From positions 1 through 42,479 of IMG/VR virus record IMGVR_UViG_3300021168_000052: a stretch of DNA of 42,479 nucleotides, one strand, 5' to 3'. The position numbers and the translations under genes were made by a program. Below the pieces are notes generated by a model. It had not been told where the DNA came from, searched no databases, and was given only the letters and a program-made list of their open reading frames with translations. Positions 1 to 42,479 of the stretch are shown here, one piece after another (position 1 is the stretch's first letter; the number at the start of each line of letters is the position of its first letter). Source of the stretch: a virus.

Positions 1-150
1 TGCGTACGTGCGGGGTGCGGACCAGGGCGGTGCGGACCTGGGCGGTGCGGACCTGGGCGGTGCGTACCTGGGCGGTGCGAACCTGCGCGGCGCGAACCTG
101 CACGGTGCGGACCTGCGCGGTGCGTACCTGTACGGTGCGGACCTGGGCGA
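1..150 (+). repeat. Tandem 15-bp coding repeat
   Basis: About ten imperfect copies of a 15-base unit (ggtgcggacctgggc and variants) are arranged head to tail. Each encodes one pentapeptide. The period and frame match the protein repeat exactly, so this is coding structure. It is also a likely site for copy-number slippage. Confidence 0.9.
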
Positions 151-412
151 TAAGAAGCTCCTCGGCGAGCGGCCATTCTTGCAGATGGGGCCGATCGGCT
201 CACGCTCTGACTACTTGCTGGCCTTCCTCACCGACAAGGGTATCTACATCAAAACCGGCTGCTTCGAAGGCACGCTGGAGGAATTCCAGAAAGCTGTACA
301 CGAGACTCACGGCGCCATCGGCACTCATGCCGAGGAATATGCAGCGGCGCTGGTACTGATCGGCATGCACGCAGAGCTTTGGATGCCAAAAGCGCAAGCG
401 GTGGCCGCATGA
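1..412 (+). CDS. Pentapeptide-repeat protein (continues from 42466 across the window ends)
   Basis: The first ~45 visible residues are uninterrupted A(D/N/Y)LxG pentapeptides, which fold as a right-handed quadrilateral beta-helix. A non-repetitive C-terminal domain of about 85 residues follows, with GSRSDYL, a Cys in the GCFEGT segment, and HAEEY. I recall this domain in other phage pentapeptide proteins; its function is unknown. The frame is open to the left edge (Ala-Tyr-Val before the GTG at 8). The last 14 bases of the window, joined to base 1, supply an ATG and Met-Asn-Phe-Ala-Asp, so the real start is 42466 rather than the GTG at 8. The stop overlaps the next start (ATGA at 409-412). 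Confidence 0.85.
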   Translation, partial: AYVRGADQGGADLGGADLGGAYLGGANLRGANLHGADLRGAYLYGADLGDKKLLGERPFLQMGPIGSRSDYLLAFLTDKGIYIKTGCFEGTLEEFQKAVHETHGAIGTHAEEYAAALVLIGMHAELWMPKAQAVAA

Positions 413-1916: not shown

Positions 1917-2104
1917 ATCTAGTCCATACCTGCCTTGGCTGTAGCCGCGAATTTCTATCAGGCATCTATCATAATTTCTGTCCCGACTGTCGAACTAACC
2001 AAAAGGAACAATCAAATGAAACCGATTCTCATTCTAGCTCTGACGCTCGCGTCGATGAGCGCCTTAGCCCGTGGATCCACAACTCACCCCGTCGCCTATC
2101 TTGA
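1913..2104 (+). CDS. Zinc-ribbon protein, 63 aa
   Basis: ATG overlaps the preceding stop (ATGA) with GAGGA upstream. Two CxxC knuckles (CLGC and CPDC, 17 residues between pairs) predict a single zinc ribbon. The C-terminal half is polar and shares DNA with the start of the next gene from 2016 in a different frame, so that part may not be conserved. Function unknown. Confidence 0.5.
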   Translation: MNLVHTCLGCSREFLSGIYHNFCPDCRTNQKEQSNETDSHSSSDARVDERLSPWIHNSPRRLS

Positions 2105-2357
2105 GGTCAAAGCCCCCACTGGCTGGACGGTATCGTACTGCACGATATCAGGGCCAGCAGGCGCTTACGCCTGGGCCACGCCATCGACGAATGAGACCTG
2201 CTACTTTGGCTATTTGAACTATTCTGGGACTTACACCGTCACCGTGTATGAGGAATCGCCGGTGCGCACCCAAGTCACGAGCGAGCAACTAGTGGTCAGT
2301 CCCTTATCCCCTGGCGAATCAGTGCCGGTGATCATTATCCAGATGGAAGCCGAGTAA
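2016..2357 (+). CDS. Secreted protein with signal peptide, 113 aa
   Basis: The ATG at 2016 has AAAAGGAA 8-10 bases upstream and is preferred to the earlier in-frame start at 1935. The N-terminus is a classic Sec signal peptide (MKPILILALTLASMSALA, cleavage after Ala-Leu-Ala). The mature part is about 95 residues, beta-rich, and has two Cys that could pair in the periplasm (SYC and TCYFGY). There is no C-terminal membrane helix, so it does not look like an exosortase substrate. It is one of two exported proteins in the rightward unit. Function unknown. Confidence 0.65.
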   Translation: MKPILILALTLASMSALARGSTTHPVAYLEVKAPTGWTVSYCTISGPAGAYAWATPSTNETCYFGYLNYSGTYTVTVYEESPVRTQVTSEQLVVSPLSPGESVPVIIIQMEAE

Positions 2358-3272: not shown

Positions 3273-3427
3273 CACGGCGCGATCACATCCGCTGCGTTTG
3301 GTGCCAACGTATCGGCTGCGCTTCGTCGGCGTGTCGCATCGACTACCACAACGCGATGTTCGTTTTCGTGCTGTCACCTTTCGCAAAGAAGCGCGCATCA
3401 CAATCTCAATCCAAAGGTGAGTCATGA
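3269..3427 (+). CDS. Small Cys-containing protein, 52 aa
   Basis: The GTG at 3269 overlaps the previous stop and has AGAGG nine bases upstream. The product contains CVWCQRIGC and a further Cys (SSACR), compatible with a small zinc site, then a basic tail. The stop overlaps the RNA-ligase ATG at 3424. A TTG at 3245 is an alternative start. Confidence 0.45.
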   Translation: MTRRDHIRCVWCQRIGCASSACRIDYHNAMFVFVLSPFAKKRASQSQSKGES

Positions 3428-4047
3428 TTGAATTTACCGAGTTCGACAAGATCAGTCGCCTCAATCGTGAGGTCATTGTCACCGAGAAGATCGATGGCAC
3501 AAATGGGCAAGTGCATATCCGACTGGCCGAAGGCAGCGAACTTGAAATGGGCTATGACACTCAGATCGAGGTCGATGGGCTGCCGTGCTATATCCGCGCC
3601 GGATCGCGCAATCGATGGGTACTATATCTCGGCTCTGATGACAACAATGGCTTTGGTCGGTGGGTCCATCAGAACGCCCATGAATTGGCCGCATTGGGTG
3701 CTGGAGCGCACTTCGGCGAATGGTGGGGGATGGGCATCCAGCGCAAATACGCAGTCCCTGAAAAGCGCTGGAGCTTATTTAATGTATCTCGCTGGACGGA
3801 TGACACGAAGCCTGCCTGTTGCCATGTCGTGCCAATCATCACTCGCGGTATTGGATTCTCCTGCGTTTACGAAGCCATCGAGCTGCTGAAGAAATATGGA
3901 TCGGTTGCCGCGCCAGGATTTATGAAGCCTGAAGGCGTCGTGGCTTTCCATGTCCACAGCCGCGAGCTTTTCAAGATGACGATTGAAAAGGACCAGGAGC
4001 ATAAATGGGAAAGCTCGCAAGCCAAAACCAAAGGTGAGCATGAATGA
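3424..4047 (+). CDS. RNA ligase (nucleotidyltransferase superfamily), 207 aa
   Basis: ATP-dependent ligase fold. Motif I is EKIDGTNG at residues 21-28, with Lys22 as the residue that would be adenylated. A middle segment FGEWWGMG (98-105) and RWSLFN (115-120) match motif III/IIIa positions. KPEGVV (168-173) matches motif IV, and LFKMT (182-186) matches motif V with its Lys. The length is short for a ligase with an extra C-terminal domain. It resembles the Rnl2-like phage RNA ligases that reseal broken RNA such as host-cleaved tRNA. No polynucleotide kinase is visible elsewhere in the genome. The ATG overlaps the upstream stop and has AAGGTGA before it. Confidence 0.85.
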   Translation: MIEFTEFDKISRLNREVIVTEKIDGTNGQVHIRLAEGSELEMGYDTQIEVDGLPCYIRAGSRNRWVLYLGSDDNNGFGRWVHQNAHELAALGAGAHFGEWWGMGIQRKYAVPEKRWSLFNVSRWTDDTKPACCHVVPIITRGIGFSCVYEAIELLKKYGSVAAPGFMKPEGVVAFHVHSRELFKMTIEKDQEHKWESSQAKTKGEHE

Positions 4048-4801
4048 GTTGGCACTTTTCGCTGGCGCTGGTGGAGGCTTACTCGCGAGCCGCCTTATCG
4101 GCTGGCGAACTATCTGCGCAGTGGAGATCAATGAATTCTGCCGGTCAGTCCTTGAGCTCCGACAGTGTGATGGCTCTCTCGATCTATTCCCAATCTGGGA
4201 CGACATACGAACCTTCGATGGCACAGCTTGGCGAGGACGTGTTGACGTGGTTTCTGGCGGATTTCCCTGTCAGGACATCAGCAGCGCAGGTACCCGCACC
4301 GGCCTCGATGGCGAACGAAGCGGTCTGTGGGTGGAAATGGCCAGGGTCATTCGTGAAGTGGAACCGCCCTTCGCGTTCGTGGAAAACTCGGCAGATCTCG
4401 TTATTAGAGGACTCGACATTGTGTTATCCGACTTGGCCGAAATGGGGATGGATGCGCGATGGGGAGTGTTCAGCGCTGCCGATGTTGGAGCACGACACCA
4501 GCGTGAGAGGCTCTTTATCGTTGCCGACCGTGACGGCCAGTTGGGACCGCCGGGGGCCTGGTCTGAGCGGCAATTTAGACAACCGTCGAATGAGCGCTTC
4601 TGCAACGGACTCAACGCGCCAGATAGTCTCGCACTTTGGATGGAGATGGCCGACGCCCGTGCTCGAATGGATGATGATGTGGCCCATCGGCTGGTCCGCA
4701 CTCACGCCATTGGAAACGGACAATTACCAAGTGTGGCTGCAGGAGCATGGCGGATGTTGACTGGCTACGATTTTAATACAGGAGTGAAGTCTGATGGCTG
4801 A
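4040..4801 (+). CDS. C5-cytosine DNA methyltransferase, 253 aa
   Basis: SAM-binding motif I is LFAGAGGG (6-13). Catalytic motif IV is GGFPCQDIS (73-81) with Cys77 as the nucleophile. Motif VI is ENS (115-117, where ENV is usual), motif VIII is RHQRERLFI (152-160), and motif X-like GNGQLPSVAA is near the C-terminus. The target-recognition region between motifs VIII and X is very short, so specificity may be relaxed. This form is common in phages and probably protects the genome from restriction. I chose ATG 4040, eight bases inside the RNA-ligase end, with AAGGTGAGC upstream. A second open frame (4044-4760) is nested inside it. Confidence 0.85.
   Translation: MNELALFAGAGGGLLASRLIGWRTICAVEINEFCRSVLELRQCDGSLDLFPIWDDIRTFDGTAWRGRVDVVSGGFPCQDISSAGTRTGLDGERSGLWVEMARVIREVEPPFAFVENSADLVIRGLDIVLSDLAEMGMDARWGVFSAADVGARHQRERLFIVADRDGQLGPPGAWSERQFRQPSNERFCNGLNAPDSLALWMEMADARARMDDDVAHRLVRTHAIGNGQLPSVAAGAWRMLTGYDFNTGVKSDG
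4044..4760 (+). CDS. Nested +1-frame protein, 238 aa, overprinting the methyltransferase
   Basis: This ORF lies entirely inside the methyltransferase in the +1 frame. Its ATG overlaps the RNA-ligase stop (ATGA at 4044-4047). The product is Trp/Ser/Pro-rich: MSWHFSLALVEAYS at the start, WPGSFVKWNRPSRSWKTRQ and TWPKWGWMRDGECSALPM in the middle, and WPTPVLEWMMMWPIGW plus LETDNYQVWLQEHGG at the end. From memory, phage proteins starting MSWH(F/Y)S.ALVEAYS and carrying 'PRWG.MRDGE' and 'EWMMG.PIGW' motifs exist in databases. If so, both frames are conserved. I cannot confirm expression. The alternative is a chance open frame carrying conserved-looking words because the methyltransferase DNA itself is conserved. 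Confidence 0.5.
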   Translation: MSWHFSLALVEAYSRAALSAGELSAQWRSMNSAGQSLSSDSVMALSIYSQSGTTYEPSMAQLGEDVLTWFLADFPVRTSAAQVPAPASMANEAVCGWKWPGSFVKWNRPSRSWKTRQISLLEDSTLCYPTWPKWGWMRDGECSALPMLEHDTSVRGSLSLPTVTASWDRRGPGLSGNLDNRRMSASATDSTRQIVSHFGWRWPTPVLEWMMMWPIGWSALTPLETDNYQVWLQEHGGC

Positions 4802-4973
4802 GATCGGCAAGGAAATGATAATCGCTCTGCGCGGCACCGAATTTCCCATGAAGTGTGATTGGTGTGGCAAAGAGATCACGGAAGAGACCGCAGAGCCAGA
4901 GGAAGCTGGTCAGTGGGTTTGCTACGAATGCGCAACTGCGCCTGACCTGGACGATCCTCGTGCGCCTGGCTAA
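4794..4973 (+). CDS. Zinc-finger-like protein, 59 aa
   Basis: ATG at 4794 overlaps the methyltransferase end by eight bases and has AGGAG nine bases upstream. Product MAEIGKEMIIAL..., with two CxxC knuckles (CDWC and CYEC, 18 residues between pairs) forming a single predicted zinc ribbon, then an acidic tail. Function unknown. Confidence 0.65.
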   Translation: MAEIGKEMIIALRGTEFPMKCDWCGKEITEETAEPEEAGQWVCYECATAPDLDDPRAPG

Positions 4974-5154
4974 GGTCATTCGAGCGTATCGGAAGCACCA
5001 CGAGATCACATTGCGCGCTCTTGCTCAGGACATTGGGACCAGCGCCGCGACGCTGATGCGATTTGAGCATGGGGTGGCAATCGACGCCAAGACATTCGTT
5101 GCCATTTTAAATTGGCTAACGTCACCATCCGATGGAGAAGTGAATGCCCCTTGA
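4960..5154 (+). CDS. Cro/CI-type HTH protein, 64 aa
   Basis: The sequence VIRAYRKHHEITLRALAQDIGTSAATLMRFEHG fits the five-helix XRE fold: 'LRALAQDIG' is helix 2 and 'SAATLMRFE' the recognition helix. The best start is GTG at 4960, overlapping the previous gene by 14 bases. Its ribosome site is poor, so translation may depend on coupling. It is a second XRE-like regulator, distinct from the one at 41151, and lies late in the rightward unit. Confidence 0.65.
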   Translation: MRLAKVIRAYRKHHEITLRALAQDIGTSAATLMRFEHGVAIDAKTFVAILNWLTSPSDGEVNAP

Positions 5155-5365: not shown

Positions 5366-5424
5366 CCTTTAATAAAGATCAAAAGATCATGACTACTGCT
5401 GATGCCGCAAAGGAGCAACCATGA
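5362..5424 (+). CDS. 20-codon coupling/leader ORF
   Basis: MTFNKDQKIMTTADAAKEQP sits between two ATGA overlaps (5362-5365 with the preceding stop, 5421-5424 with the next start) and contains the AAGGAG ribosome site (5409-5414) of the exosortase substrate gene. It exactly bridges the gap, so it may couple translation of the cassette to the upstream genes. Confidence 0.4.
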   Translation: MTFNKDQKIMTTADAAKEQP

Positions 5425-5987
5425 AACAGCTACGCGAGCACTGGCCGCTTCTAGCAGCCGCTACCCTGCTCATTCTCGCCGCAACCCTGGCCCGTGCCCA
5501 GGAGTACGAGATTACCGGCACCATCACAGCGCAGGGTAATGTCCCAGTGAACTACCCGGCACAGATCGATGGTGCTGTGGGGGATCCGGCAACGTTTTAC
5601 CTTACCATCAGTGGCGCTCAAGTGACCGACTCAAGTATTCAGATCATCCCGGTCTGGTACAACGGGATTGCCACTGTAGCCAATGGCGCACTTGATTCGG
5701 CTAGCCAAAGCATCGTGCTATCGCGCGGGGATATGGGCTCAACTGCCGTGTACGAGTCCTTCACCTTCAATGATGCGCCGAACACGCTGGAGGTGACCTT
5801 GACCGAATACCCGCACAATGGCGCTGCGATAAGCTTTGTTACCGACATCGGTAATGCGGTGGCGAGCATGGTGACGCCTTCCGCGCATGCGCTCGCAGCT
5901 CCCGAACTTGACCCTAATTGGTGGGCACCGGCCTTGACGTTCCTAGGCTGTGCGATTGCGGTGATGATGGCCAAGAAATGGCCTTAA
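5421..5987 (+). CDS. Secreted protein with C-terminal exosortase sorting signal, 188 aa
   Basis: Residues 1-26 are a Sec signal peptide (basic start, LLAAATLLILAATLA core, cleavage after Ala-Arg-Ala). Residues 27-160 are a beta-rich Thr/Ser/Ala/Gly exported domain without Cys. The C-terminus has the three parts of a CTERM sorting signal: a short motif Pro-Glu-Leu-Asp (161-164), a hydrophobic helix (about 167-183) and a basic end (Lys185-Lys186). The motif resembles the VPEID type handled by exosortase E and, more loosely, PEP-CTERM. The overlapping next gene is an exosortase, so this is very probably its substrate. By family knowledge, such proteins are cleaved at the motif and released or transferred at the cell surface. 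Ribosome site AAGGAG is seven bases upstream. Confidence 0.8.
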   Translation: MKQLREHWPLLAAATLLILAATLARAQEYEITGTITAQGNVPVNYPAQIDGAVGDPATFYLTISGAQVTDSSIQIIPVWYNGIATVANGALDSASQSIVLSRGDMGSTAVYESFTFNDAPNTLEVTLTEYPHNGAAISFVTDIGNAVASMVTPSAHALAAPELDPNWWAPALTFLGCAIAVMMAKKWP

Positions 5988-6535
5988 TTCACCCCCTGCT
6001 ACATTGGGGCCTGCGCTTTGCTATTACTTACGCCTTCTGTTGGGCTATCCTGCGCAGGCCGCTCTACGCAGTTCTACCAGCGGCGTTCGCTGTGGTGGCT
6101 ATCAAGGCAGCCCAAGCGCTCTGGGAGCCACTAGCGGGGCTTACCTTCGCGCTGGTGAGCCTTTTGCTACGCCCCTTCATGGCGCTCTACAGTGATCCTG
6201 CCACCCGCACGCTAGGTACCCCGCACTTCATGGTGCAGATAGCCGATGCCTGTTCAGGACTTGAGGGAATAGGCCTGATGCTGGTCTTTTGTACAGCTTA
6301 CCTTTGGTTCTGCCGGACGCAGTACCGCTTCCCAAAGGTGCTCACTATCGTGCCGGTAGGTGTTCTCACCGTCTATGGCTTAAACGTCCTGCGCATAGCC
6401 ATCCTCGTGCTGATCGGAGATGCGGGATATACAAAAGCCGCAGTCTTGGGCTTTCACTCACTCGCCGGGTGGGTGGGGTTTAATGTGACAGCTTTGGGGG
6501 TTGTTATACTAGCGCGTCACCTGAAGACTGCCTGA
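5978..6535 (+). CDS. Exosortase (XrtE-like core, no protease domain), 185 aa
   Basis: A polytopic membrane protein with several hydrophobic segments. It has the catalytic triad pattern of exosortases: Cys92 in ADACSGLEGIGLML, Arg139 in YGLNVLRIAIL and His160 in LGFHSLAGWVGF. The CSG-EGIGL wording is closest, from memory, to exosortase E, which usually carries a C-terminal CPBP protease domain that is absent here. It would act in the inner membrane as a transpeptidase-like sorting enzyme. The ATG at 5978 overlaps the substrate gene by ten bases; the earlier in-frame start at 5918 would lie well inside that gene. The gene ends convergently with the leftward lysis unit, overlapping it by 19 bases. 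Confidence 0.85.
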   Translation: MALIHPLLHWGLRFAITYAFCWAILRRPLYAVLPAAFAVVAIKAAQALWEPLAGLTFALVSLLLRPFMALYSDPATRTLGTPHFMVQIADACSGLEGIGLMLVFCTAYLWFCRTQYRFPKVLTIVPVGVLTVYGLNVLRIAILVLIGDAGYTKAAVLGFHSLAGWVGFNVTALGVVILARHLKTA

Positions 6536-6687
6536 TGCAGCACGATACCGCTCACCATGAGCGAAAGCAGCCAAAGGAACATGCCAACCCAACCCCAACT
6601 CACACGTGATGTCGGAAACAGATTGAAGCCTGCAAATAGCAGGCACGCCAGGGCCACCAATTGCAGAAGCAGCGGCAGAATATTCAT
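6517..6687 (-). CDS. Small two-helix membrane protein, 56 aa (holin candidate)
   Basis: MNILPLLLQLVALACLLFAG starts a first membrane helix (3-22). A short loop with Arg follows, then a second helix (about 33-52). The ribosome site is the best in the region (AAGGAGGA). The ATG overlaps the upstream stop (ATGA). It is the last gene of the leftward unit, beside other lysis-type genes. Size and topology fit a class II holin, but the family is not recognised. Confidence 0.6.
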   Translation of the reverse strand: MNILPLLLQLVALACLLFAGFNLFPTSRVSWGWVGMFLWLLSLMVSGIVLHQAVFR

Positions 6688-7724: not shown

Positions 7725-8411
7725 TTAATTGTTTGGAATAAAGTACGCTGCCACAGCGTAACAGAGTGTGGTGACGGCTGCGGCGAGCTCTGGACTGAGG
7801 GGGGTTTTAAAATACTGATCGCAGATTGCCACAATGATCTGGGCGGCAGCTTGGCCGACGATACCGCCGGTAATGAGTTTGCGGCTTGGGATCCACTTAT
7901 TTGAGATTGGATCTGGTTCTGGCATAGGAATCACCTGTGGCGCCGCGGGTGCGGCAGTTGGTTCTGGCTGCGTGGTCGGTGCGATCGGCTCGGCAGGGGC
8001 CGCTACAGAAGGCTTAACGCCGTCTAACTCGATACCGGCAATGATCACACTATCATCATACGGGCAGAAGCCCAATTCCTGCACCGTAATGGCATGGAGC
8101 AGCGCCGACATTTGCGCAGGAAGCACTAAAGGGCCATTCTGGCCCATACGCGCCTCAACTGCGGCAATATAGGCCTTCGTATTGTTCTCAGCGGGGGGTG
8201 CCCAGTGCGAACAGACATCCGCCACGGTGGTTTTGCCCGCCACGTAATGGCGCATGATGATGTGATTGGATGCGCGGTAGCCATATTGCGGTGCCTGAAA
8301 CTCAACGAACTGCGCATCGGATTGCACCGGGGTTTGGCCCACCCACGTTTGATTCGGCTCGCGCCTGATATCGGTGGGGTTGTTCAACCGTTCGCCGCGC
8401 GGTTCAGTCAT
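7725..8411 (-). CDS. P5-like putative lysin fused to a holin-like membrane tail, 228 aa
   Basis: The N-terminal part (RGERLNNPTDIRREPNQTWVG... FVEFQAPQYGYRAS... VADVCSHWAPPAENNTKAYI) matches, from memory, the phage 'structural protein P5'-like family, often placed with peptidoglycan-degrading virion proteins. A Pro/Ala-rich linker (about residues 135-168) follows. The C-terminus then has two hydrophobic segments (SRKLITGGIVGQAAAQIIVAI and LSPELAAAVTTLCYAVAAYFI) resembling a small phage holin domain (PF16083-like). The combination suggests a membrane-anchored cell-wall enzyme or an enzyme-holin fusion. The active site is not certain. Confidence 0.65.
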   Translation of the reverse strand: MTEPRGERLNNPTDIRREPNQTWVGQTPVQSDAQFVEFQAPQYGYRASNHIIMRHYVAGKTTVADVCSHWAPPAENNTKAYIAAVEARMGQNGPLVLPAQMSALLHAITVQELGFCPYDDSVIIAGIELDGVKPSVAAPAEPIAPTTQPEPTAAPAAPQVIPMPEPDPISNKWIPSRKLITGGIVGQAAAQIIVAICDQYFKTPLSPELAAAVTTLCYAVAAYFIPNN

Positions 8412-8614
8412 TTAACCCGATCCTGTTCTTCTTTTACACCCTCTGCTTTCGAGGCCTCAGCGGTGAGTTTCAGCAACTTGTCCATCTTTGAGTTTGTGGC
8501 CGCGTGCACCGTTTCGACTTTGGTATCCACTTGTGCGACCTTGCGCGTAACCCTTAAAACTCCGATCAGCGTAGCTATTGAGGTGATAAATTGTGCAACT
8601 TCGGTAAGGTTCAT
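8408..8614 (-). CDS. Small membrane protein with coiled tail, 68 aa (lysis accessory)
   Basis: One N-terminal hydrophobic segment (VAQFITSIATLIGVLRV) is followed by a charged helix (VDTKVETVHAATNSKMDKLLKLTAEASKAEGVKEEQDR). This layout is common in phage lysis cassettes; inner-membrane spanin-like or antiholin-like roles are possible. There are 4-base overlaps with both neighbours. Confidence 0.6.
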   Translation of the reverse strand: MNLTEVAQFITSIATLIGVLRVTRKVAQVDTKVETVHAATNSKMDKLLKLTAEASKAEGVKEEQDRVK

Positions 8615-8913
8615 TTCACACGCCCCATGACGATAAGATTGACCTGAGCCTGAATGGCCTGCACCTGCCCGTACACGATGACCTCGCCCGTAATGGCACC
8701 AGCCACCAGGATGACCAGTATCGAGAGCATCGCATTGATGAACTTGGTCGAGCCGTTAAAGCCGCTCGAGGCCACAATGCGCTGGGCAGTTCTATGGACC
8801 CACGCATACTCGCGCGGGCTTAATGACTTGCCGTACTTGGCCTCCCACTCGGCACGCAAGCCAGCCCGGTCGTAGAGTTCCCGGTCAGTCATTTCGCGGG
8901 CATCGGTGCTCAC
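8611..8913 (-). CDS. Membrane protein, 100 aa (holin or lysis accessory candidate)
   Basis: The N-terminal half is soluble (MTDRELYDRAGLRAEWEAKYGKSLSPREYAWVHRT). One strong membrane helix follows at about residues 61-84 (INAMLSILVILVAGAITGEVIVYG), then a short tail. It is the first gene of the lysis group, after a ~50-base gap from the tail-spike gene. Holin identity is unproven. Confidence 0.55.
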   Translation of the reverse strand: MSTDAREMTDRELYDRAGLRAEWEAKYGKSLSPREYAWVHRTAQRIVASSGFNGSTKFINAMLSILVILVAGAITGEVIVYGQVQAIQAQVNLIVMGRVK

Positions 8914-20161: not shown

Positions 20162-20820
20162 GCCGCATCTTTCTTCTTATGCATGGAGTTGATCTGCGCC
20201 TGCATGCCCTCGATCTGCTTTTCGAGGGCTTTGACCCGCTCCTCAGCCTTACTCGCCTTTTCCTGCTCCTTGGTGGCTAGGCTCATCAGTTCCGATTCAT
20301 CCAAAGCAGCTTTTGCCATGTCCCGAAACTTTCTGCCCCCCATGATATTGGAGGCGGCCTGATCGGAAAGCCCAGCGAGGGCTTCCACGGTGGGAATGTT
20401 CAGCCCTTTGAGGCTTTCAGCAAAAGAGCGTGTAATAGCGCCCCACTCAGAGATATCCCAGCCCTTATCGATTTTCTCGCCCTTTTTAACAAAAAGTGCC
20501 CAAGCTTCCGGATACTTGGTAGGATCTGATTCCCCTTCCGCATCATCGATTTCCCAGCCATCTTGCTCGTACTCCTCCTCGGAAATCTTTTTATACTTAG
20601 GGGTTACCCCGCGGGCGAGCATGTCCCAAACCGTTTTGGTATTGCCGGGAGAGACGATATTTACATAGACGCGATCCTCATAGTATGGGTACCCCTGCTC
20701 CTTTGAGATGGCTTCCATGAGGACTGGCTTTGCGTAGAAGCGCACCAGCAAGCCTTTCTCCGTGCCATAGATGACCTTGCCGCCGACGCCCAACGTCTGG
20801 GGTGATGCAAATTCGCTCAT
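20158..20820 (-). CDS. Hypothetical head-associated protein, 220 aa
   Basis: Start at the ATG overlapping the upstream stop (ATGA), with GAAGG upstream, rather than the in-frame codon at 20835. The N-terminal domain is soluble and beta-rich (FASPQTLGVGGKVIYGTEKGLLVRFYAKPVLMEAI). The middle has a short helix-hairpin-helix-like stretch (NIPTVEALAGLSDQAASNIMGGRKFRDMA). The C-terminus is a coiled coil (ATKEQEKASKAEERVKALEKQIEGMQAQINSMHKKK). Its place between coat-type and adaptor genes suggests a head role. Confidence 0.6.
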   Translation of the reverse strand: MSEFASPQTLGVGGKVIYGTEKGLLVRFYAKPVLMEAISKEQGYPYYEDRVYVNIVSPGNTKTVWDMLARGVTPKYKKISEEEYEQDGWEIDDAEGESDPTKYPEAWALFVKKGEKIDKGWDISEWGAITRSFAESLKGLNIPTVEALAGLSDQAASNIMGGRKFRDMAKAALDESELMSLATKEQEKASKAEERVKALEKQIEGMQAQINSMHKKKDAA

Positions 20821-22760
20821 AAATTCACCTTCCAAGTGTAATTTTCACCTAATTCAGGTAACCCAAAAGCTTCTTCAACTGCCTTCTTGACTCCCCAGCA
20901 GGGGAATTCCGTATTCTCGTAGTCATGGCCCGAGATAAAGCCGCCTGCTTTGATCTTAGGCCGCCACGCTTCAATGTCTGCCTTGCACCCTTGGTAAGAA
21001 TGATCTGCATCGATAAAAACGAAGTCCAGGCTCTTATCTGGGATCTCTTTGGCTGCATCTTGAGAATCCTTGCGCAAAATCTTAGCCCGCGGGCCTGCAA
21101 AATAGATCATCTGATGGGTGATCCGGTAATAGCGCTCTTGCTGCTCTTGGGTGAGGCTCGCATGAAAATCACCGGATTCAACGTACTGCGGCTTATGATC
21201 CGCACTCCAGGAATCGACTAGGTATAAAGTCAAATCCTGACGGCTTAGGAGGCGCCTGGACAGCTCCCCGGCGAATACCCCTATCTCAGCCCCCACGGGG
21301 TCACTTTTGCCCTCAAGCCACGTGAGAAGCGCTTTAGCGCGTAGATCCGCGGCACTCGAGGCAGGCTCAAAGTGATTGGCGAGTGTCGGAATCAATCCCT
21401 TGCCATAGACCGTAATCTCACAGCCTAGCTGGGCAAGTTGGCTAACCAGCGGGATGAACTGCTGGCTCTGCTGGATCATCCAGGGGGCGCATTTGAAAGT
21501 CTCGCCATGGGCCTGCACATCAAGTACAAGTTCGCCGTCGTTCAAGGCTTGGTGGTAGGCGTGATGTTCGCCGTCCTGATAGCAGGAATCGAAGCCAAAA
21601 AGAAAGAACTGCCGATGTCCTAGGATATAAGCCAAGGACAGGGCATTAAGCCCGATGGTCGAACCCCCCGATACCATCGTCATGCCCTTATCGTTATCGC
21701 CAATGGCATCAATGACCGTCTCGCTGTGCGGATGCCAGCAAATGAGCCGACCTTCCGCTGCATCCAATACCTCCGGGTGACACTGCGAGGCGTAATAGCA
21801 GATCGTATCGACTTTGGGCACAAAGCTTAAATTGCCAAGCCGTGCATCGTGCATCACATGCGCATCGGGAGTCACCCCGCGTTCGCGCAGGTAATCAAAC
21901 GTGTTGTTCGTGGCAAAGACCACGGCCCCGGATAGCTGCCAGCCGCGGATACGCCAGATATCATGCTCTAAGCTTGGGCCACCACCCACGATGATCGCAG
22001 GGTATGGCGTGCCATCCCGCATTTCGATCCATCGAGGCTTACTTAAGGCATATTTGATGTTCTTGCGCAGTTCTTGCTCCTTCACATTCATCGCAAAGAA
22101 CATCGTTTCATTGGAGACTTTCCAGACATCCTTCACCCAGTTAAAACATTGGTGAGGCGAGGGAAAGCCATGAAAGAACACCACAGAGGTGCCTTTCGGT
22201 ACAAATTCGGTGCAATCGACCTTGTAGGAGCGAAATGCACCAGGATATAGCTTCTGCCAAAGATCAGCCTGAGGATAGAATTGCTCTATCCAGATTTGAT
22301 CACCGCCTTCAATATCAGGGAATCCCGCGTTCTCAAACCCTACCCACAGATCCGTCATTGTGCCTGCTTCCCACGCCATCACCGAGGACTGTAAGCCATC
22401 GGGTCGATAGACATCCCGCAGGATTGCAAAGGGACCGGCATAAGCCGCAATATCATCCAAGGGACCGGTTATTACCGTGTCTAAATCGAAATAGAGTACG
22501 CGCTCACCTTGTCTGAAAGCGTGTTCGCTGAATAAGTACAGCTTATTCCACCAACCTTCTAACCCTTCAGGCAGAAGCTTGGTCTGAACGCCGGCCATAT
22601 GGTCAAAATCCGCGGGGTTATCCGTGAACACCGTAAAGCGTCCACGAAGCCCCGCGGCCAAATTGCGTCTGACCATCGAATACAAAATCTCCACTGCTTC
22701 CACCGCTCTACCGTCCATATAGGTGTCGGCATTGACGCAAACGCAGCAGATATTGAGCAT
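20817..22760 (-). CDS. Three-domain glycosyltransferase-DUF115-methyltransferase fusion, 647 aa
   Basis: Residues 1-215 form a GT-A type glycosyltransferase with the metal-binding DxD in LYFDLDTVITG (Asp92, Asp94) and a late FFHGFPSPH. Residues ~250-460 match the DUF115 / MptE-like family (AIIVGGGPSLEHD at 255-267, VFATNNT, FFLFGFDSCY), often found with surface-glycan and flagellin glycosylation. Residues ~485-647 are a class I SAM methyltransferase (GAEIGVFAGE, 490-499; DFVFIDADHSYQG, 579-591; GGFISGHDY). ATG at 22760 overlaps the decoration-gene stop. Location among head genes suggests sugar decoration of the virion, or of a host glycan receptor. The acceptor is not known. Confidence 0.8.
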   Translation of the reverse strand: MLNICCVCVNADTYMDGRAVEAVEILYSMVRRNLAAGLRGRFTVFTDNPADFDHMAGVQTKLLPEGLEGWWNKLYLFSEHAFRQGERVLYFDLDTVITGPLDDIAAYAGPFAILRDVYRPDGLQSSVMAWEAGTMTDLWVGFENAGFPDIEGGDQIWIEQFYPQADLWQKLYPGAFRSYKVDCTEFVPKGTSVVFFHGFPSPHQCFNWVKDVWKVSNETMFFAMNVKEQELRKNIKYALSKPRWIEMRDGTPYPAIIVGGGPSLEHDIWRIRGWQLSGAVVFATNNTFDYLRERGVTPDAHVMHDARLGNLSFVPKVDTICYYASQCHPEVLDAAEGRLICWHPHSETVIDAIGDNDKGMTMVSGGSTIGLNALSLAYILGHRQFFLFGFDSCYQDGEHHAYHQALNDGELVLDVQAHGETFKCAPWMIQQSQQFIPLVSQLAQLGCEITVYGKGLIPTLANHFEPASSAADLRAKALLTWLEGKSDPVGAEIGVFAGELSRRLLSRQDLTLYLVDSWSADHKPQYVESGDFHASLTQEQQERYYRITHQMIYFAGPRAKILRKDSQDAAKEIPDKSLDFVFIDADHSYQGCKADIEAWRPKIKAGGFISGHDYENTEFPCWGVKKAVEEAFGLPELGENYTWKVNL

Positions 22761-23413
22761 CAAATAGCCGTGATCTTATTGGGCCGATCGTACCAGACCA
22801 ATGCGCAACTGATGGTTGCACTATTGGATGAGGCAAAGCGGGCACCAATGAGTTCCGTTCCAACCGCAGATGTGACCATGACCCGCCCAGCAGTCGCCGA
22901 TACGAATACACGGCCATTCAGGGTGTGAATAACGGCAGTCTTTAAGGTCTGCGCGATACCCACCAATTGGAACCAGGCGTATTGGATCGAAGTGGCATTG
23001 CTCGTGATACCACCGGTTGCACCCGTGGTATTCGATACACACACCGCCCCGGGTTCACCACCCTTAGCGGTTGTCGGCATCACCGCCACCGTATAGTTAG
23101 CGAGTGACCCTGTAAACCAGGTCACCAGCGTCCCTAAGGGCACTGCAGTCGATAACGGCACAGCAAGGTAGATGAACTCGCCATAGCCCAAGGTAGGCTC
23201 CCAGCCGGCCACAATCTGCCCCAACACGGGCTGAAAGATAGGCCGCGGCGCAATGGAGGTTGTAATGGTATTGATGCCAGAGCCTGGACCAACTCCAGGT
23301 GCATCGAGGGATACCACGCACAGATCCAGATCGCCAATGAGCGGGGTGAAAGTACTCCAGTTGTACGTAACCGCAGCATTGACTTGCGGGCTTGCAAAAG
23401 TAAGTTTAGCCAT
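22760..23413 (-). CDS. Head decoration protein-like, 217 aa
   Basis: A beta-rich, Ala/Thr/Gly-rich protein directly downstream of the coat gene, the usual place for decoration or head-fibre proteins. Segments such as NGRVFVSATAGRVMVTSAVGTELIGARFASS resemble the small beta domains of such proteins. AAAGGAG precedes the ATG. No catalytic motif. Confidence 0.6.
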   Translation of the reverse strand: MAKLTFASPQVNAAVTYNWSTFTPLIGDLDLCVVSLDAPGVGPGSGINTITTSIAPRPIFQPVLGQIVAGWEPTLGYGEFIYLAVPLSTAVPLGTLVTWFTGSLANYTVAVMPTTAKGGEPGAVCVSNTTGATGGITSNATSIQYAWFQLVGIAQTLKTAVIHTLNGRVFVSATAGRVMVTSAVGTELIGARFASSNSATISCALVWYDRPNKITAI

Positions 23414-23430: not shown

Positions 23431-24414
23431 TTACGCGCTTAGAACGCCCTGCAAGAACCGATTGCTCAAGGTCAAATTACCGGCGAAACCGATCAATTTA
23501 ACCATCGCATCTTGGTTCACTGCAAATCGTTCATCACCCAGCGGAGCAAAGTTGCGGTCCGCATGGGGCCTGAAGAAAATGTACTTGGTATTCAAGAAGT
23601 ACATCGTGCTCACCGGCGCACCACCACCGAATCCACCGTCCAAGACCACATCGGCGTTCATATATTTCAGTGACTGAAAGCCAACTTCTGCCATCTCGTC
23701 ACTCGTGATACGCTGAATCGCCTGCAAGGACTCCAAGTAGAACCGATAGTAGTTATTATCCGCCACGATCAAATCGGGTGCATCAGCGCCCCTAACGAGC
23801 TGCAAGTACACACGATTCATGTAGGACTGGATATTCGCCGTGCTCGTAGCAGCACCACCATTGGTGACACCCGAGAAGGCGACATTTCGCCAGAAGCTCC
23901 AAATGCTCGAATCGATACCGCCAATCACACCGCTGTTGTTGGTCGTCCCAATCAAAAGCTGGATACCGCCAATCTGCCGGCCGCCATCAGCCGTGCCATT
24001 GGAATAGGTATCAAGCGCGATATTATTGGTTAAGGTCTGCTCAGCGTTCTCGATGCGACCTTCGAGCAAGTCGATGATCGCGTTCTCGCCTGAGTTTTGC
24101 AGCATTTCAAGGCCGGAGATCGATACTGCTACCGCTGCCTGCGCATAGTTGTATTCAGCCCCGGTGAAGACATCGGAAGGCGAGATATTCAAGGCTTCGT
24201 AGCCCGAGTACCGCTTGAAAGTGCCGTTTTCTTGATAGTTGAGTTCCTGAACGATCGTTCGGCCCCCGGAGACAGGTTTTACCTTCCCCTTGGCGCGTAA
24301 TCGATAGAGCAGGGCATTGTTTTTTGTGACGTTATCTGCAAGTTTTCCTGTTCGGTTTCGCAGAGTCGTCGTCACGATTTCCGTCAAGGCTGTTGACGGA
24401 TTAATCAGTGCCAT
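23431..24414 (-). CDS. Major capsid protein, 327 aa
   Basis: Order (portal, scaffold, this gene, decoration) and composition identify the coat. The start MALINPSTALTEIVTTTLRNRTGKLADNVTKNNALLYRLRAKGKVKPVSGG and the segments FKRYSGYEALN, AQAAVAVSISGLEML and FFRPHADRNFAPLGDERFAVNQDAMV fit a compact HK97-fold coat family of podoviruses. No protease gene precedes it, so maturation may not involve cleavage; a separate scaffold is present. Family placement is from memory. Confidence 0.8.
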   Translation of the reverse strand: MALINPSTALTEIVTTTLRNRTGKLADNVTKNNALLYRLRAKGKVKPVSGGRTIVQELNYQENGTFKRYSGYEALNISPSDVFTGAEYNYAQAAVAVSISGLEMLQNSGENAIIDLLEGRIENAEQTLTNNIALDTYSNGTADGGRQIGGIQLLIGTTNNSGVIGGIDSSIWSFWRNVAFSGVTNGGAATSTANIQSYMNRVYLQLVRGADAPDLIVADNNYYRFYLESLQAIQRITSDEMAEVGFQSLKYMNADVVLDGGFGGGAPVSTMYFLNTKYIFFRPHADRNFAPLGDERFAVNQDAMVKLIGFAGNLTLSNRFLQGVLSA

Positions 24415-25484: not shown

Positions 25485-25822
25485 TAGCGCTTCCCCTGTA
25501 AGACAGTTTTCAATTCTCGAGCCACTTCACCCTTCTTAGGCCTAAAGTCATTGCGTATCGGCTTAATCGGCTCATTGCCGACCTCCACAAAGCGGTTGCG
25601 CTTCAAGAACTCGCGATGATCTTTGCGCGAGGTTATCCATTCCCCAGCCCTATCACCGGCTACCGCCCTGTAGGGGGCGATATCGGGCGTGACCATGGCT
25701 GCGGATATTACCTGCACCATCTTAGCCCCACAGCCACAGGGGTGAGTTATAGCGTGATCACGCACCAAGCCCACAATGCTTTTAACCTCGCCACAAGTCG
25801 GACATTCATAGTCGTAGATCAT
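25484..25822 (-). CDS. FmdB-type zinc-ribbon protein, 112 aa
   Basis: MIYDYECPTCGEVKSI... HPCGCGAKMVQV has the FmdB zinc-ribbon pattern (C7-C10 and C29-C31). A basic C-terminal region follows. Such proteins are often encoded between portal and scaffold in phages with this head layout; the role is unknown. It overlaps the portal stop by one base (TAATG). Confidence 0.75.
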   Translation of the reverse strand: MIYDYECPTCGEVKSIVGLVRDHAITHPCGCGAKMVQVISAAMVTPDIAPYRAVAGDRAGEWITSRKDHREFLKRNRFVEVGNEPIKPIRNDFRPKKGEVARELKTVLQGKR

Positions 25823-28455
25823 TAGTGAATACCTACTATCTGGCCCTTCTCATCGCGTACCACTTTGCGGGGCTTGCGAGCCTCTTTTAAGGCTTCGGTC
25901 AGCTTAGCGATCGCCTGAACAGTTGGTTCATGCTCTTTAGCCTTTGCCTCGCCTTCCGCATCCGCTTTGACCTTAGGTTTAAGCTTCGCCACCTTTTCAG
26001 CATTCTCGCCCCTCACCCCTTCGATCTCTTTGGCTTGCTTGCCCTTAACTCCCTCTATTTCCTTGGCCTTATCGGCTTTCAAGGACTCAACCCCGACCTG
26101 AGTCTGACGTTCATGCTCAGCCATGCGGCCTTCGTGTTCCTGGGTCATGGAGGTGATCTTTTGCTCATGAGCCTGCTTGGAGCCCTCGAGCTGCATCTCG
26201 TGCTGATGCTCCATCTGGGCGATTTGGATCTTGGTAGCATTGTCCTTATCGGCTATTTCCTTCTTAGCTGCGGTTTCGAATTGGGCCTTTTCGGCCTCGA
26301 ACCGTTGCTTGACTTCGGCAACCTCTTTATCACGCTGTGTTTCGAGCTGTGTCTTATGCGCTGCGACCTGGATATCAGCCTGGGCACGGGCCTGATCGGA
26401 CTTGGCATCGGCTGCCGCTTTGGCCTGCGCGATCTGAATATCAGCCTTGGCCTTGATCTGCGCAACCTGGGCATCGGACTGAGCTTGTGCCTGCTGCTTC
26501 ATCACCTCAGGATTCGGCGGTGGCGGAGTATTCGCTAACTTATCGATCGCATCCTCAAAGACGCGTTCTAAGCTTCGGGCCACCTTAAAGCCGCGGATAC
26601 CGAATAGGATCAGTTCACCGGCTGCCGGAATCATGCTCTGCGGTACGCTCGAGGCTTCCCCTATCAGTTGCGACACCGCAGTGATGAAGGCCATTCGTGC
26701 CTCCCGCTCGTTATCCTCATCAAGCCTGATGGTCGAGTCCGTCTCCACATCGATGCGAAACTCGCGCAGTACCGGGTTTTCAAGTAAGGCCGCGACCTCT
26801 TCCCAAGTCGGCTCTTTGAGCAGGCTTAACTTGTCGGCTCCGGGCATTTGAACGCCTGGCGCTGGGGCAGATGCGCCTCCAAGACCTGGCGGCGGTTGGG
26901 CGCCTCCACCGGGGGCAGCTTGGCCCGGTTGTCCTGGCACGGGTGGTCCGGGAGCAGCCTGAGGTGGTCCACCACCAGGTGCGCCTTGCATAGGGGGCAT
27001 TGGATGCTGTGCGGCACTAATGATTGCATTTAATTGGGCTTTCTCGGCTTGAGTTAGGAGCTTGACGCCTGAAATCTTCTTGATCGTCTCGATATCATAG
27101 TCGGCGATGATCTCTGACATGATCCGAATGGTATCGCGGCAGAAGCGCTGTACCTCACGCTGGGCATCGGATAGCCGCAATACCGCAAACTGGCCCTTGA
27201 TCTGCTGTGCGGTGGCCGTCTCATTAGGCTCACTAAGTCCACGGATGATGTCCGACATGCCGGTAATCTGATATACATCGTCAATCATCATCTGGCGCTG
27301 CTCGCGCAAGAAGCCCAAAGCCTCGGCAATCTCTTTTAAGGGCAGTAGTTCCATGACGCCGGCTAGGCCGCCCTTCTCTTTTAAGGCTATCCAGCCGTCC
27401 ACTGGCACTAAAGCGTTCTCCGTGCCCTCAGACAAGAGGCGATCTAGACCCTCGGCAGAGCTGTCCCTGACACCGGCCACCTTAAGGGCTTTACCGATGG
27501 CTGTGATACGGCTCGATAGTTCATCTATCTCATTCGCTTGGTCCTGATAGAACGTGAAGTTGGGTGTCGGGACCAGTTCTTCAGATGTTAGGTTCGCAAA
27601 CATCGGCGGCGGGCAGGGGAAGAAGCCCTCAAGCTTCAAGGGGTCATCTTGTTCATCCAGCAACTTAGGATGGTTCTTACAGACCCACAGCGCTTTACGG
27701 TCCTGTTTGTCCCAAATCTCGTAAATGATCGCTTTCTTCTGTTCGCGATTGTCCTGCTTAACCTGTGCGTCTTTCAAGGTCTTCGGCTGCCAGTCCAATG
27801 GAACGTCCGTAAACTCCTTCCCGAACCGCTCTAAACCCTCCTCACGGGTCAAATAGATGATGCGCCAGACTGCCCGGACTTCCTCCCAGGTTCTCGCCCA
27901 GGTGTGGCCGAAGTCCTCCCAGTACACGTAATCCACCATCGTCTCTTCGTACTTCAGGCGCTCTGAAGCTGCATCCTCGGCCTCGTTGGTGACCTCTTCA
28001 CCCTCAACAGTCTCTTCAGGCTTGTTCTCATCGGCTGGGTTTAGCTGCTTATGGAAGTGCGGCACATAGCGCACCCAAACCGTACCGCGGCCTGGCAACT
28101 CGTAATCAAGCACCGCCTGACGGATGACTGAGCCAAAGGGGTTGGTGCACTGAATCGTATAGTCCAAACACCGCTCGAGCACTTCGGCTACCTGACGGCC
28201 TACCGGGTCTTTATCCTTGAACCGCCGCTCAACCTCAGGCTTTGGATCCCGTGCGTATAGCGCCGGCACACGGGTCTGCACATTGGACCAGAGGATATTA
28301 AGCCGTGTGACCGCATCCTCACGGGGCGTGCGTACATCCTTGTAGCGCTTCATGATCTTGCGTCCGCGCTTCAGCCACTTATCGGCCGTGCGCTCCCAGA
28401 GCTGGATTTCATTCTTCCAAAAAGCGACGACTGGCGTAGCGGGTTCAAGGCTCAT
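25822..28455 (-). CDS. Portal protein, P22-like, 877 aa
   Basis: The N-terminal two thirds (FWKNEIQLWERTADKWLKRGRKIMKRYKDVR... RLNILWSNVQTRVPALYARDPKPEV... LDYELPGRGTVWVRYVP) are typical of large podovirus portals. The middle contains a Pro/Gly/Ala-rich linker (PMPPMQGAPGGGPPQAAPGPP). The C-terminal ~230 residues are a Lys/Glu/Gln/Ala coiled coil (QAQAQSDAQVAQIKAKADIQIAQAK...), which would extend into the head as a long barrel. It forms the DNA entry ring with the terminase. Long for a portal, mainly because of the coiled coil. Confidence 0.85.
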   Translation of the reverse strand: MSLEPATPVVAFWKNEIQLWERTADKWLKRGRKIMKRYKDVRTPREDAVTRLNILWSNVQTRVPALYARDPKPEVERRFKDKDPVGRQVAEVLERCLDYTIQCTNPFGSVIRQAVLDYELPGRGTVWVRYVPHFHKQLNPADENKPEETVEGEEVTNEAEDAASERLKYEETMVDYVYWEDFGHTWARTWEEVRAVWRIIYLTREEGLERFGKEFTDVPLDWQPKTLKDAQVKQDNREQKKAIIYEIWDKQDRKALWVCKNHPKLLDEQDDPLKLEGFFPCPPPMFANLTSEELVPTPNFTFYQDQANEIDELSSRITAIGKALKVAGVRDSSAEGLDRLLSEGTENALVPVDGWIALKEKGGLAGVMELLPLKEIAEALGFLREQRQMMIDDVYQITGMSDIIRGLSEPNETATAQQIKGQFAVLRLSDAQREVQRFCRDTIRIMSEIIADYDIETIKKISGVKLLTQAEKAQLNAIISAAQHPMPPMQGAPGGGPPQAAPGPPVPGQPGQAAPGGGAQPPPGLGGASAPAPGVQMPGADKLSLLKEPTWEEVAALLENPVLREFRIDVETDSTIRLDEDNEREARMAFITAVSQLIGEASSVPQSMIPAAGELILFGIRGFKVARSLERVFEDAIDKLANTPPPPNPEVMKQQAQAQSDAQVAQIKAKADIQIAQAKAAADAKSDQARAQADIQVAAHKTQLETQRDKEVAEVKQRFEAEKAQFETAAKKEIADKDNATKIQIAQMEHQHEMQLEGSKQAHEQKITSMTQEHEGRMAEHERQTQVGVESLKADKAKEIEGVKGKQAKEIEGVRGENAEKVAKLKPKVKADAEGEAKAKEHEPTVQAIAKLTEALKEARKPRKVVRDEKGQIVGIH

Positions 28456-30314: not shown

Positions 30315-31691
30315 TTAAATTCGCTCCTGTCTTACCTTGTTTCGGTCTTTCGGCCAAAAGAGTTGATCGGCTGTCATATCCTCAAGGAATATCGGTTTGG
30401 GCTTCGGCTTCTCGGTCGAAGGGTTCTGCCACACCTGCCCAATGATCTCAAAGGCATCAGAGCCATGGCTTGCCCAGTCATGCCGCGGCTTAGACTTAAA
30501 CGCCTTCTTGTCCTCATCGAACTCAAACTGATACTGACGCAACGCCTCTATGCCATCGTGGCACTTTTCAAGATCGAACCAGCAGCGCTCAATGGTCTTG
30601 CGGCTGGCCTCGATGCTGTTCTGCTGGCTGGTTGCCGGGATCACCGACATTTTAACGCCCGCATTCCAGGCCTGATTGACGATGGATCGGCCCCCAGCCG
30701 CCATTAACTCATGCGCTGCATCATGCGGTACCCAGTGCCGCCCATAATTGTTATTATTGGCATATGGCTTGGCTTTCAGCACATCACAATAATGTTCGGT
30801 GCCTTGGCCGTTGTTCTCGTAATAATCAATCAGCCGTATCTCGCCATGCGTGATCTGCCAGAACCAAATAGCCGTCGAATCATCAAAACCCAAGTCCCAA
30901 GCTGTGTGTACAGGAAGAGCAGCATCATAAGGCACACTCCCGATGCGACCAGCATCAAGAGCAAGACGCATAGGAAGGCCATACACAGCCCCATGAATAG
31001 CCGCCTCAAAGCTGCATTCAAACTCCTGGGCATACTGATCCTCAGTCATCGATTGCCGGGCCGCTGCGAGCTCTTCATCAGGCAGTATCTTCGTGCGGCT
31101 GGCTTTTAGCATCACCGCAAACCAGTCCTGAGCCTTGGATGAGTGGTCCCAAATCTCCCAAAAGGCGTTCTTGCCCTTAGGGGTGCCAATGAAAACTGCC
31201 CAGCCTTTGCGATCAGTAAGGGCCGGTCTTATGACCTCAGACCATACCGAGGGCTTCATATCGGCGTACTCATCCATAATCACGCCATCGAAGTATAGGC
31301 CTCGGAGCGTATTGGGATTATCTGCGCCATAAAGCCGTATGGTCGCATCATTGAGCAATTTGACCGACAAGTCAGACTCTCTAGGTTCCTCTACCATGAT
31401 CGGGGCTGCAAAGTACTTCAAATACTCCCATGCCACCTGCTTAGCCTGTCCATAGAATGGGGCGATATAGGCATATCTGCCCCGTTCTTTCTTATCCGTG
31501 ATGGCACGCTTGATCAGTTCATTGATACAGGCCACCGTCTTACCTGCTCGCCGGTGAGCGACGATACAGCCCCATCGATGAGTACGGGCATGAAAGCCTT
31601 TGAAGTGCTCCCGAGGCGTATACGGGATGACTATCCGTCTAGGTGCCCCAGGTGATAAGGACGGGGCCTGTTGCAGTCTTGCCGTCGTCAT
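30315..31691 (-). CDS. terL: Terminase large subunit, 458 aa
   Basis: N-terminal ATPase: Walker A AHRRAGKT (45-52), Walker B GVIMDEYAD (136-144) with catalytic Glu141, and coupling motif FIGTPKG (168-174). C-terminal RNase H-like nuclease: TAWDLGFDDST (263-273) with Asp266 and a downstream Asp in DWASHGSDAFE. All parts are present and the length is usual. It packages DNA through the portal. It overlaps the small-subunit candidate by 53 bases. Confidence 0.93.
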   Translation of the reverse strand: MTTARLQQAPSLSPGAPRRIVIPYTPREHFKGFHARTHRWGCIVAHRRAGKTVACINELIKRAITDKKERGRYAYIAPFYGQAKQVAWEYLKYFAAPIMVEEPRESDLSVKLLNDATIRLYGADNPNTLRGLYFDGVIMDEYADMKPSVWSEVIRPALTDRKGWAVFIGTPKGKNAFWEIWDHSSKAQDWFAVMLKASRTKILPDEELAAARQSMTEDQYAQEFECSFEAAIHGAVYGLPMRLALDAGRIGSVPYDAALPVHTAWDLGFDDSTAIWFWQITHGEIRLIDYYENNGQGTEHYCDVLKAKPYANNNNYGRHWVPHDAAHELMAAGGRSIVNQAWNAGVKMSVIPATSQQNSIEASRKTIERCWFDLEKCHDGIEALRQYQFEFDEDKKAFKSKPRHDWASHGSDAFEIIGQVWQNPSTEKPKPKPIFLEDMTADQLFWPKDRNKVRQERI

Positions 31692-34997: not shown

Positions 34998-35663
34998 TTA
35001 AGAGAGGATTTGTCCCATTAGTGTAGCACCACCCCCAGTAGCTGCAGGCGCATAGGCCCAAGTAAACACACCCGCTCGATCACTCACCGTTTGTCCTGCC
35101 GTCGGTGCAATGGCCGCCGCTGCGCCCTGCACAAAATATTCGGCGAAGTTGCCGGCGAAGGTAAGCCCCACGCTCGTGAAGGCATTGGGGCTCGTGCCGG
35201 CCGTCATGGTGTTGGTCGCATCATTAGATGAGCCTGCGCACAGCACCAATGCCCCGGCAACAAGCGGAGTAATCGAATTGGCGACAATGATATTGGCGCC
35301 GGTTCCAGGAAATCCGGTATCAAGACCCGAAGGCGTGCCAGTGAGTGCTCCAGTTCCTGTGATGTACCAGGCAGCCACATAAAAGAAGGCCCCGCCACCG
35401 GTGATGGTCACGGTAATCACATGACTACCGGCGGTAACATTCTGCAATTGATAGAGATCTTCGTTAAAACTCGATCCCGTAACAACCTGGCTGGCCACTG
35501 CACTGTAGGCAGTCCCATCGGAAACACTCACCAATGGGCCATCGGCCGCGCCGTATCTCACCAGCACATTGATCGTGGCACCCGCAGGAACACCAGTCAG
35601 AGTCACTGCTCCGGTAGTAGCCCCAGCATTATTCTCAACCGGTGCGCTGACTGTAAAGCTCAT
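34998..35663 (-). CDS. Beta-sandwich virion protein, 221 aa
   Basis: Thr/Ala/Gly-rich beta strands (SAPVENNAGATTGAVTLTGVPAGATINVLVRYG... VITVTITGGGAFFYVAAWYITG... WAYAPAATGG), an Ig-like or fibre-type layout often found in phage tail-tip and fibre proteins. The ATG overlaps the hydrolase stop by four bases, so it is tightly coupled to it and may be its partner or carrier. Confidence 0.55.
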   Translation of the reverse strand: MSFTVSAPVENNAGATTGAVTLTGVPAGATINVLVRYGAADGPLVSVSDGTAYSAVASQVVTGSSFNEDLYQLQNVTAGSHVITVTITGGGAFFYVAAWYITGTGALTGTPSGLDTGFPGTGANIIVANSITPLVAGALVLCAGSSNDATNTMTAGTSPNAFTSVGLTFAGNFAEYFVQGAAAAIAPTAGQTVSDRAGVFTWAYAPAATGGGATLMGQILS

Positions 35664-42469: not shown

Positions 42470-42479
42470 ACTTTGCCGA
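42466..42479 (+). CDS. Start of the pentapeptide-repeat gene (continues at base 1)
   Basis: ATG AAC TTT GCC GA| joins T GCG TAC GTG at base 1, giving Met-Asn-Phe-Ala-Asp-Ala-Tyr-Val-Arg-Gly-Ala-Asp in frame with the repeats. The ATG overlaps the preceding stop (ATGA). Together with 1-412 this is one gene of about 141 aa. Confidence 0.85.

Follow-up and report, generated by a model that had tools for sequence, protein, structure and literature searches.

The gene pair and its phage

Two overlapping genes lie on the plus strand of the stretch of viral DNA analysed here, which is IMG/VR record IMGVR_UViG_3300021168_000052, positions 1 to 42,479 (42,479 nt, hereafter the window). The first, at 5421-5987 (+), encodes P0001, a secreted, putative sorting substrate of 188 amino acids, consisting of a signal peptide (residues 1-26), an ectodomain (about 27-160) and a C-terminal tail. 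The second, at 5978-6535 (+), encodes P0002, a compact, XrtE-like exosortase of 185 amino acids. The two genes share 10 nt (ATGGCCTTAA) and both frames are intact, that is, the coordinates, frames and overlap given in an earlier, sequence-only reading of this DNA all were correct upon re-checking. A strong Shine-Dalgarno sequence (AAAGGAGCAACCATG) serves the P0001 gene, and a promoter scan upstream of the pair found none. The GC content of the pair is 57%, vs 52.9% for the phage.

That the pair is carried by a phage, as also had been claimed, is borne out by the remainder of the contig. Encoded there, all on the minus strand, are a large terminase (30315-31691; phrog_2), a portal protein (25822-28455; phrog_12082), a major head protein (23431-24414; phrog_9953) and, in a convergent lysis/structural row, an endolysin-like gene (7725-8411), and the window carries as well tail proteins, an amidase and a tail fibre with an endosialidase chaperone. 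The source contig is that of a genuine tailed phage. No tyrosine integrase was found on the window. The capsid's relatives, at 66% to a Bradyrhizobium phage and 70% to prophages, suggest a host among Pseudomonadota, with terminase relatives among isolates being distant (45%). The prophages nearest in capsid belong to a genus of which 60 genomes yielded no exosortase, and which may not be that of the host.

The pair is found at the end of a plus-strand row of genes, with a C5-cytosine DNA methyltransferase (3983-4801, +), an RNA ligase and, upstream of the pair, an HTH_3 (Cro/CI-type) regulator (4855-5154, +) in that same row. This placement suggests expression of the pair apart from the minus-strand lysis/structural row. 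The RNA ligase and methyltransferase frames themselves overlap (3424-4801, +).

A compact exosortase

An exosortase with a Cys92-Arg139-His160 set had been proposed for 5978-6535, along with a search of that gene against exosortase/archaeosortase models. P0002 in fact exceeds the curated cut-offs of both PF09721 (E=4.6e-13; 49.6 bits, cut-off 25.7) and TIGR04178 (E=7.4e-16; 58.2 bits, cut-off 23). Six positions are invariant among EpsH/exosortases, i.e., those of Cys-x-Gly, Asn-x-x-Arg and His-x-x-x-Gly (Haft 2006, PMC1569441), and all six are filled in P0002, as C92-x-G94, N136-x-x-R139 and H160-x-x-x-G164. The catalytic set of Cys92, Arg139 and His160 furthermore is invariant across 35 aligned sequences, namely P0002 and 34 relatives. 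An AlphaFold2 model (pLDDT 88.3, pTM 0.78) is mainly helical, apart from a small element of three strands which precedes Cys92, and with this model Foldseek found no PDB or BFVD match at E<=0.001; no solved exosortase structure was found. From family models, invariant residues and predicted fold, P0002 can be assigned firmly to the exosortases.

The best subfamily model is TIGR04162 (XrtE, exosortase E/protease; E=1.7e-26), with P0002's 93.3 bits falling below that family's cut-off of 150 bits. Such a score is consistent with an absent protease half, and the absence of XrtE's CPBP protease domain, as had been read from the DNA, indeed is seen: a stop codon follows residue 185, leaving P0002 without a C-terminal CPBP-type protease domain. 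Judged by its sequence, P0002 thus is an exosortase family member which falls outside of XrtE by two tested criteria, those of score and of protease domain.

A putative sorting substrate

P0001 begins with what by inspection is a signal-peptide-like N-terminus (MKQLREHWPLLAAATLLILAATLARA, followed by QEYE) and its C-terminal end is APELDPNWWAPALTFLGCAIAVMMAKKWP. The tail consists of APELDP, then a transmembrane helix, and then AKKWP. P0001 displays this signal-like N-terminus along with the tripartite, PEP-CTERM-like pattern of motif, transmembrane helix and basic end, and to this extent its earlier description as an exported 188-aa protein with a PELD/membrane helix/Lys-Lys tail stands. The putative sorting signal (PELDPNWWAPALTFLGCAIAVMMAKKWP) corresponds to residues 161-188 (5901-5984, +).

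The ectodomain, of about 130 residues, is Ser/Thr-rich and Cys-free. Its composition (0% Cys, 0.7% Arg, 0% Lys, 10.4% Thr, 9.0% Ser, 6.0% Asn) agrees with that published for PEP-CTERM proteins (PMC1569441). AlphaFold2, run on two sequences, gave no reliable fold for the ectodomain (pLDDT 39), and no family was found for it. Residues 25-89 (window positions 5493-5687) are weakly similar to antibody lambda light-chain V domains in a PDB sequence search (best E=7e-4), such that the displayed domain perhaps has an Ig-like fold, although this is to be taken as a lead only.

P0001 also had been claimed to be the enzyme's own substrate, and here tail pattern and adjacency to the enzyme gene speak for the claim whereas profile HMMs do not. 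The combination of PE[ILVM][DSNG], transmembrane helix and basic end is seen in just two of 4,195 viral six-frame ORFs, P0001 and its orthologue in the second phage described below, a count which is supportive rather than an independent test as this pattern was composed after the cellular and phage tails had been seen. Comparison of the tail with CTERM models, as the sequence-only reading had suggested, gave no match to TIGR04161 (VPEID-CTERM) up to E=10, and home-made HMMs likewise yielded noise, whether built from cellular tails (E=4200) or from nine non-Rhodobacterales tails (E=25). Placement of the motif between VPEID and PEP was somewhat loose: PELD is instead of VPEID type, i.e., PE[IL]D, with one cellular XrtE neighbour possessing VPELD. 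The APELDP with which the phage tail starts resembles, in addition, the APEIDP tails adjoining acidobacterial and planctomycete XrtE. The pairing of P0001 with P0002 rests, then, on pattern, adjacency, gene overlap and the limits of a cassette which the two genes share.

The same cassette in a second phage

A search of other viral contigs for the pair, another suggestion of the earlier reading, located it in an otherwise different phage, IMGVR_UViG_3300050821_009403 (42,498 bp), here called G001. The best terminase family is phrog_979 in G001 vs phrog_2 in the window, and the major head protein belongs to phrog_283 vs phrog_9953. Early genes as well as lysis genes also are common to the two, with the lysis genes (7725-8913) directly adjoining the pair in both phages. 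The common cassette (5439-6523, +) displays 88.6% nucleotide identity, with homology beginning 18 nt into the first gene and ceasing 12 nt short of where the second ends. Between window and G001, dN/dS is 0.16 for P0001 by both the Nei-Gojobori and the Yang-Nielsen method, and for P0002 is 0.14 and 0.23, respectively. Both genes are under purifying selection, that is, with a dN/dS of about 0.15. Homology limits at the edges of the pair, in combination with low dN/dS, indicate one functional cassette which is exchanged among phages rather than a chimera. The pair travels as a unit in two phages whose capsid modules differ, and these two, both metagenomic, are the only carriers known so far.

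Two neighbouring genes can be mentioned here. At 1935-2357 (+), in the pair's own row, is a 140-aa protein, probably exported, which is 85% identical in G001 and for which no family match was seen. At 6536-6686 (-), between the exosortase and lysis genes, is a small ORF with two hydrophobic stretches (MNILPLLLQLVALACLLFAGF...), a candidate holin, which is missing at that place in G001.

Cellular relatives

The closest cellular enzymes to P0002 are XrtE proteins, with 50% identity over residues 45-183 to one from a Bryobacterales (Acidobacteriota) genome and 36-45% identity to most others. Frames of these relatives are about 450-680 aa, except for two cut by contig ends, such that a length of 185 aa is peculiar to the phage form. 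With a simple pattern, EEL.FRG or close, a CPBP-type motif is found in about half of them, with the others being equally long. Phylogenetically, the two phage enzymes fall with the non-Rhodobacterales XrtE, in a supported clade (97/96) that also contains Acidobacteriota, Planctomycetota and a Burkholderiales MAG, and are nearest to Acidobacteriota, there with moderate support (86/64) and on a long branch. XrtE-like matches with E below 1e-40 were found in three of 396 Acidobacteriota genomes, all as long frames.

A short VPEID-CTERM gene usually adjoins the cellular XrtE gene. A gene for a PE[ILMV][DS]/transmembrane/basic tail is found near xrtE in 66 of 82 cellular loci and, in 40 of those 66, is directly upstream and on the same strand. 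It is judged from these sequences that the phage would have retained the enzyme core and neighbouring substrate, but without the protease half.

The known system most like the phage pair is XrtE/VPEID-CTERM (TIGR04162/TIGR04161) of Rhodobacterales, Acidobacteriota, Planctomycetota and Burkholderiales. This is P0002's best family match, with core and catalytic residues conserved, and there too a short PE[IL]D-tailed gene commonly lies just upstream of that of the enzyme. P0002 nevertheless differs from XrtE in its 185-aa length, its lack of a CPBP half and its shortened N-terminus, while P0001 differs from VPEID-CTERM proteins in possessing a larger ectodomain and a tail which falls outside of the VPEID model; the pair also is phage-borne rather than belonging to an EPS locus or a plasmid. 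With the broader EpsH/XrtA superfamily (PF09721, TIGR04178) the pair has in common the six invariant residues, a polytopic membrane protein, and a partner tail consisting of PE-x, transmembrane helix and basic end, but there is one dedicated candidate partner rather than many and no EPS genes are nearby. Compact, stand-alone NCBIfam types (XrtH, XrtG, XrtF and ArtE) are similar to P0002 in their small size and in consisting of an exosortase core only, but P0002's matches to their models, at E=6e-5 or worse, fall far short of that to the XrtE model.

Outside of the exosortases, phage surface or superinfection-exclusion morons resemble the pair as small accessory cassettes, found at a module boundary, with a product predicted to be envelope-bound. 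Such morons, as far as they are known, rely on lipoprotein or simple membrane anchors, and none is known to be accompanied by a dedicated sorting enzyme.

Possible roles of the pair

The pair probably represents a minimal, phage-borne protein-sorting module which was derived from a cellular XrtE/VPEID-CTERM system. By analogy with the reaction proposed for exosortases and archaeosortases (PMC1569441, PMC7157517), the signal peptide would export P0001, and the C-terminal helix would keep it in the inner membrane with PELD at the periplasmic face. Production of P0002 probably is translationally coupled to that of P0001. Cys92 then would attack at PELD, freeing the helix and Lys-Lys tail and forming a thioester, from which the P0001 ectodomain would be released or instead handed to an acceptor (lipid, sugar or water). 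In this way the ectodomain of 130 aa would come to lie on the infected cell's envelope or outside of it. As to what the phage gains, one may speculate that, most likely, the envelope is altered in the resident phage's favour, e.g., by superinfection exclusion or changed adhesion. Should the host be like the bacteria with the nearest capsid prophages, in which exosortases were not found (0/60), then a self-contained pair would be necessary. It is conceivable, as a more tentative and more specific proposal, that some phages carry a miniature system, i.e., one exosortase and one dedicated substrate, which works in exosortase-less hosts and coats or otherwise modifies the infected cell, e.g., toward phage exclusion.

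P0002 might act instead mainly on host proteins with PE[IL]D or PEP tails, such as EPS-linked adhesins, with P0001 an ordinary membrane-anchored, secreted moron that happens to lie alongside. Cellular exosortases do serve many proteins (PMC12188702), and the P0001 tail fails all CTERM profiles. This reading nonetheless seems unlikely given that the two genes overlap and are exchanged between different phages as a single block, that the tripartite tail of P0001 and its G001 orthologue is unique among the viral ORFs surveyed, and that exosortases were not found in the 60 genomes of what is, maybe, not the host's genus. Somewhat less probable still is that the two are membrane proteins which act upon the envelope late in infection, toward lysis or host takeover, rather than in sorting. 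Here it is the immediate adjacency of the lysis genes in both phages that is suggestive, as too is the small hydrophobic ORF lying in between, but the pair is found on the plus strand with DNA-metabolism genes, opposite the lysis/structural row, and a complete exosortase catalytic set has been retained under purifying selection.

That the pair is host sequence joined by chimeric assembly, or instead consists of decaying passenger genes, is very improbable. The higher GC content suggests import at some time, but the cassette is found within G001 with phage genes on both sides, which rules out the host-sequence chimera that had been named earlier as a potential refutation, and identity to cellular enzymes does not exceed 50%. 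The frames, in turn, are intact and selected. Both chimeric assembly and pseudogenes consequently were rejected.

A phage-borne exosortase

The exosortases studied so far are enzymes of chromosomes or plasmids and serve EPS and many host proteins. The earlier reading was aware of no described phage exosortase system, in agreement with what was found here. Four exosortase queries found none in 50,697 GenBank phage records, a fold-based search found none in BFVD, and no description of a phage exosortase was found in the literature searched. Scans of viral contigs with XrtE and XrtA-type alignments returned G001 alone or nothing, these being weak negatives since short exact peptide patterns were used. 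Virus proteins with the TIGR03118 exosortase-interaction domain have been published (PMC11003980), which means that substrates by themselves may already have been observed. What appears to be new here, as read from sequence, is an exosortase family member in a phage setting along with one candidate partner.

The chemistry of exosortases is hard to test given that an enzyme usually has many substrates and a larger body. Cleavage, acceptor and structure would be most simply approached with a self-contained, 1.1-kb cassette in which an enzyme of only 185 aa is accompanied by a single candidate substrate. The pair has the look of a portable kit with which the infected cell's surface would be altered and, if it truly is a sorting module, then this would add a protein-sorting step to known phage ways of changing the host envelope. 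If the miniature-system proposal holds as well, then no exosortase system would have been known from a phage before this one, and probably no enzyme-substrate set would be smaller.

Other features of the two genomes

Within the structural module, at 20817-22763 (-), is a 648-aa gene that matches glycosyltransferase-like, MptE-like (PF01973) and Methyltransf_24 families, an unusual multi-domain enzyme among head and tail genes. A 642-aa protein with a cellulase match (GH5, PF00150), possibly a virion or host-recognition enzyme, is encoded at 35660-37588 (-), and is 77% identical in G001 despite the different capsid modules. A pentapeptide-repeat gene straddles the ends of the window (1-412 and 42341-42479). 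In G001 the sequences of these two ends are joined by a longer pentapeptide-repeat array, and the window therefore probably is a circularly permuted, near-complete genome which has been broken in the repeat.
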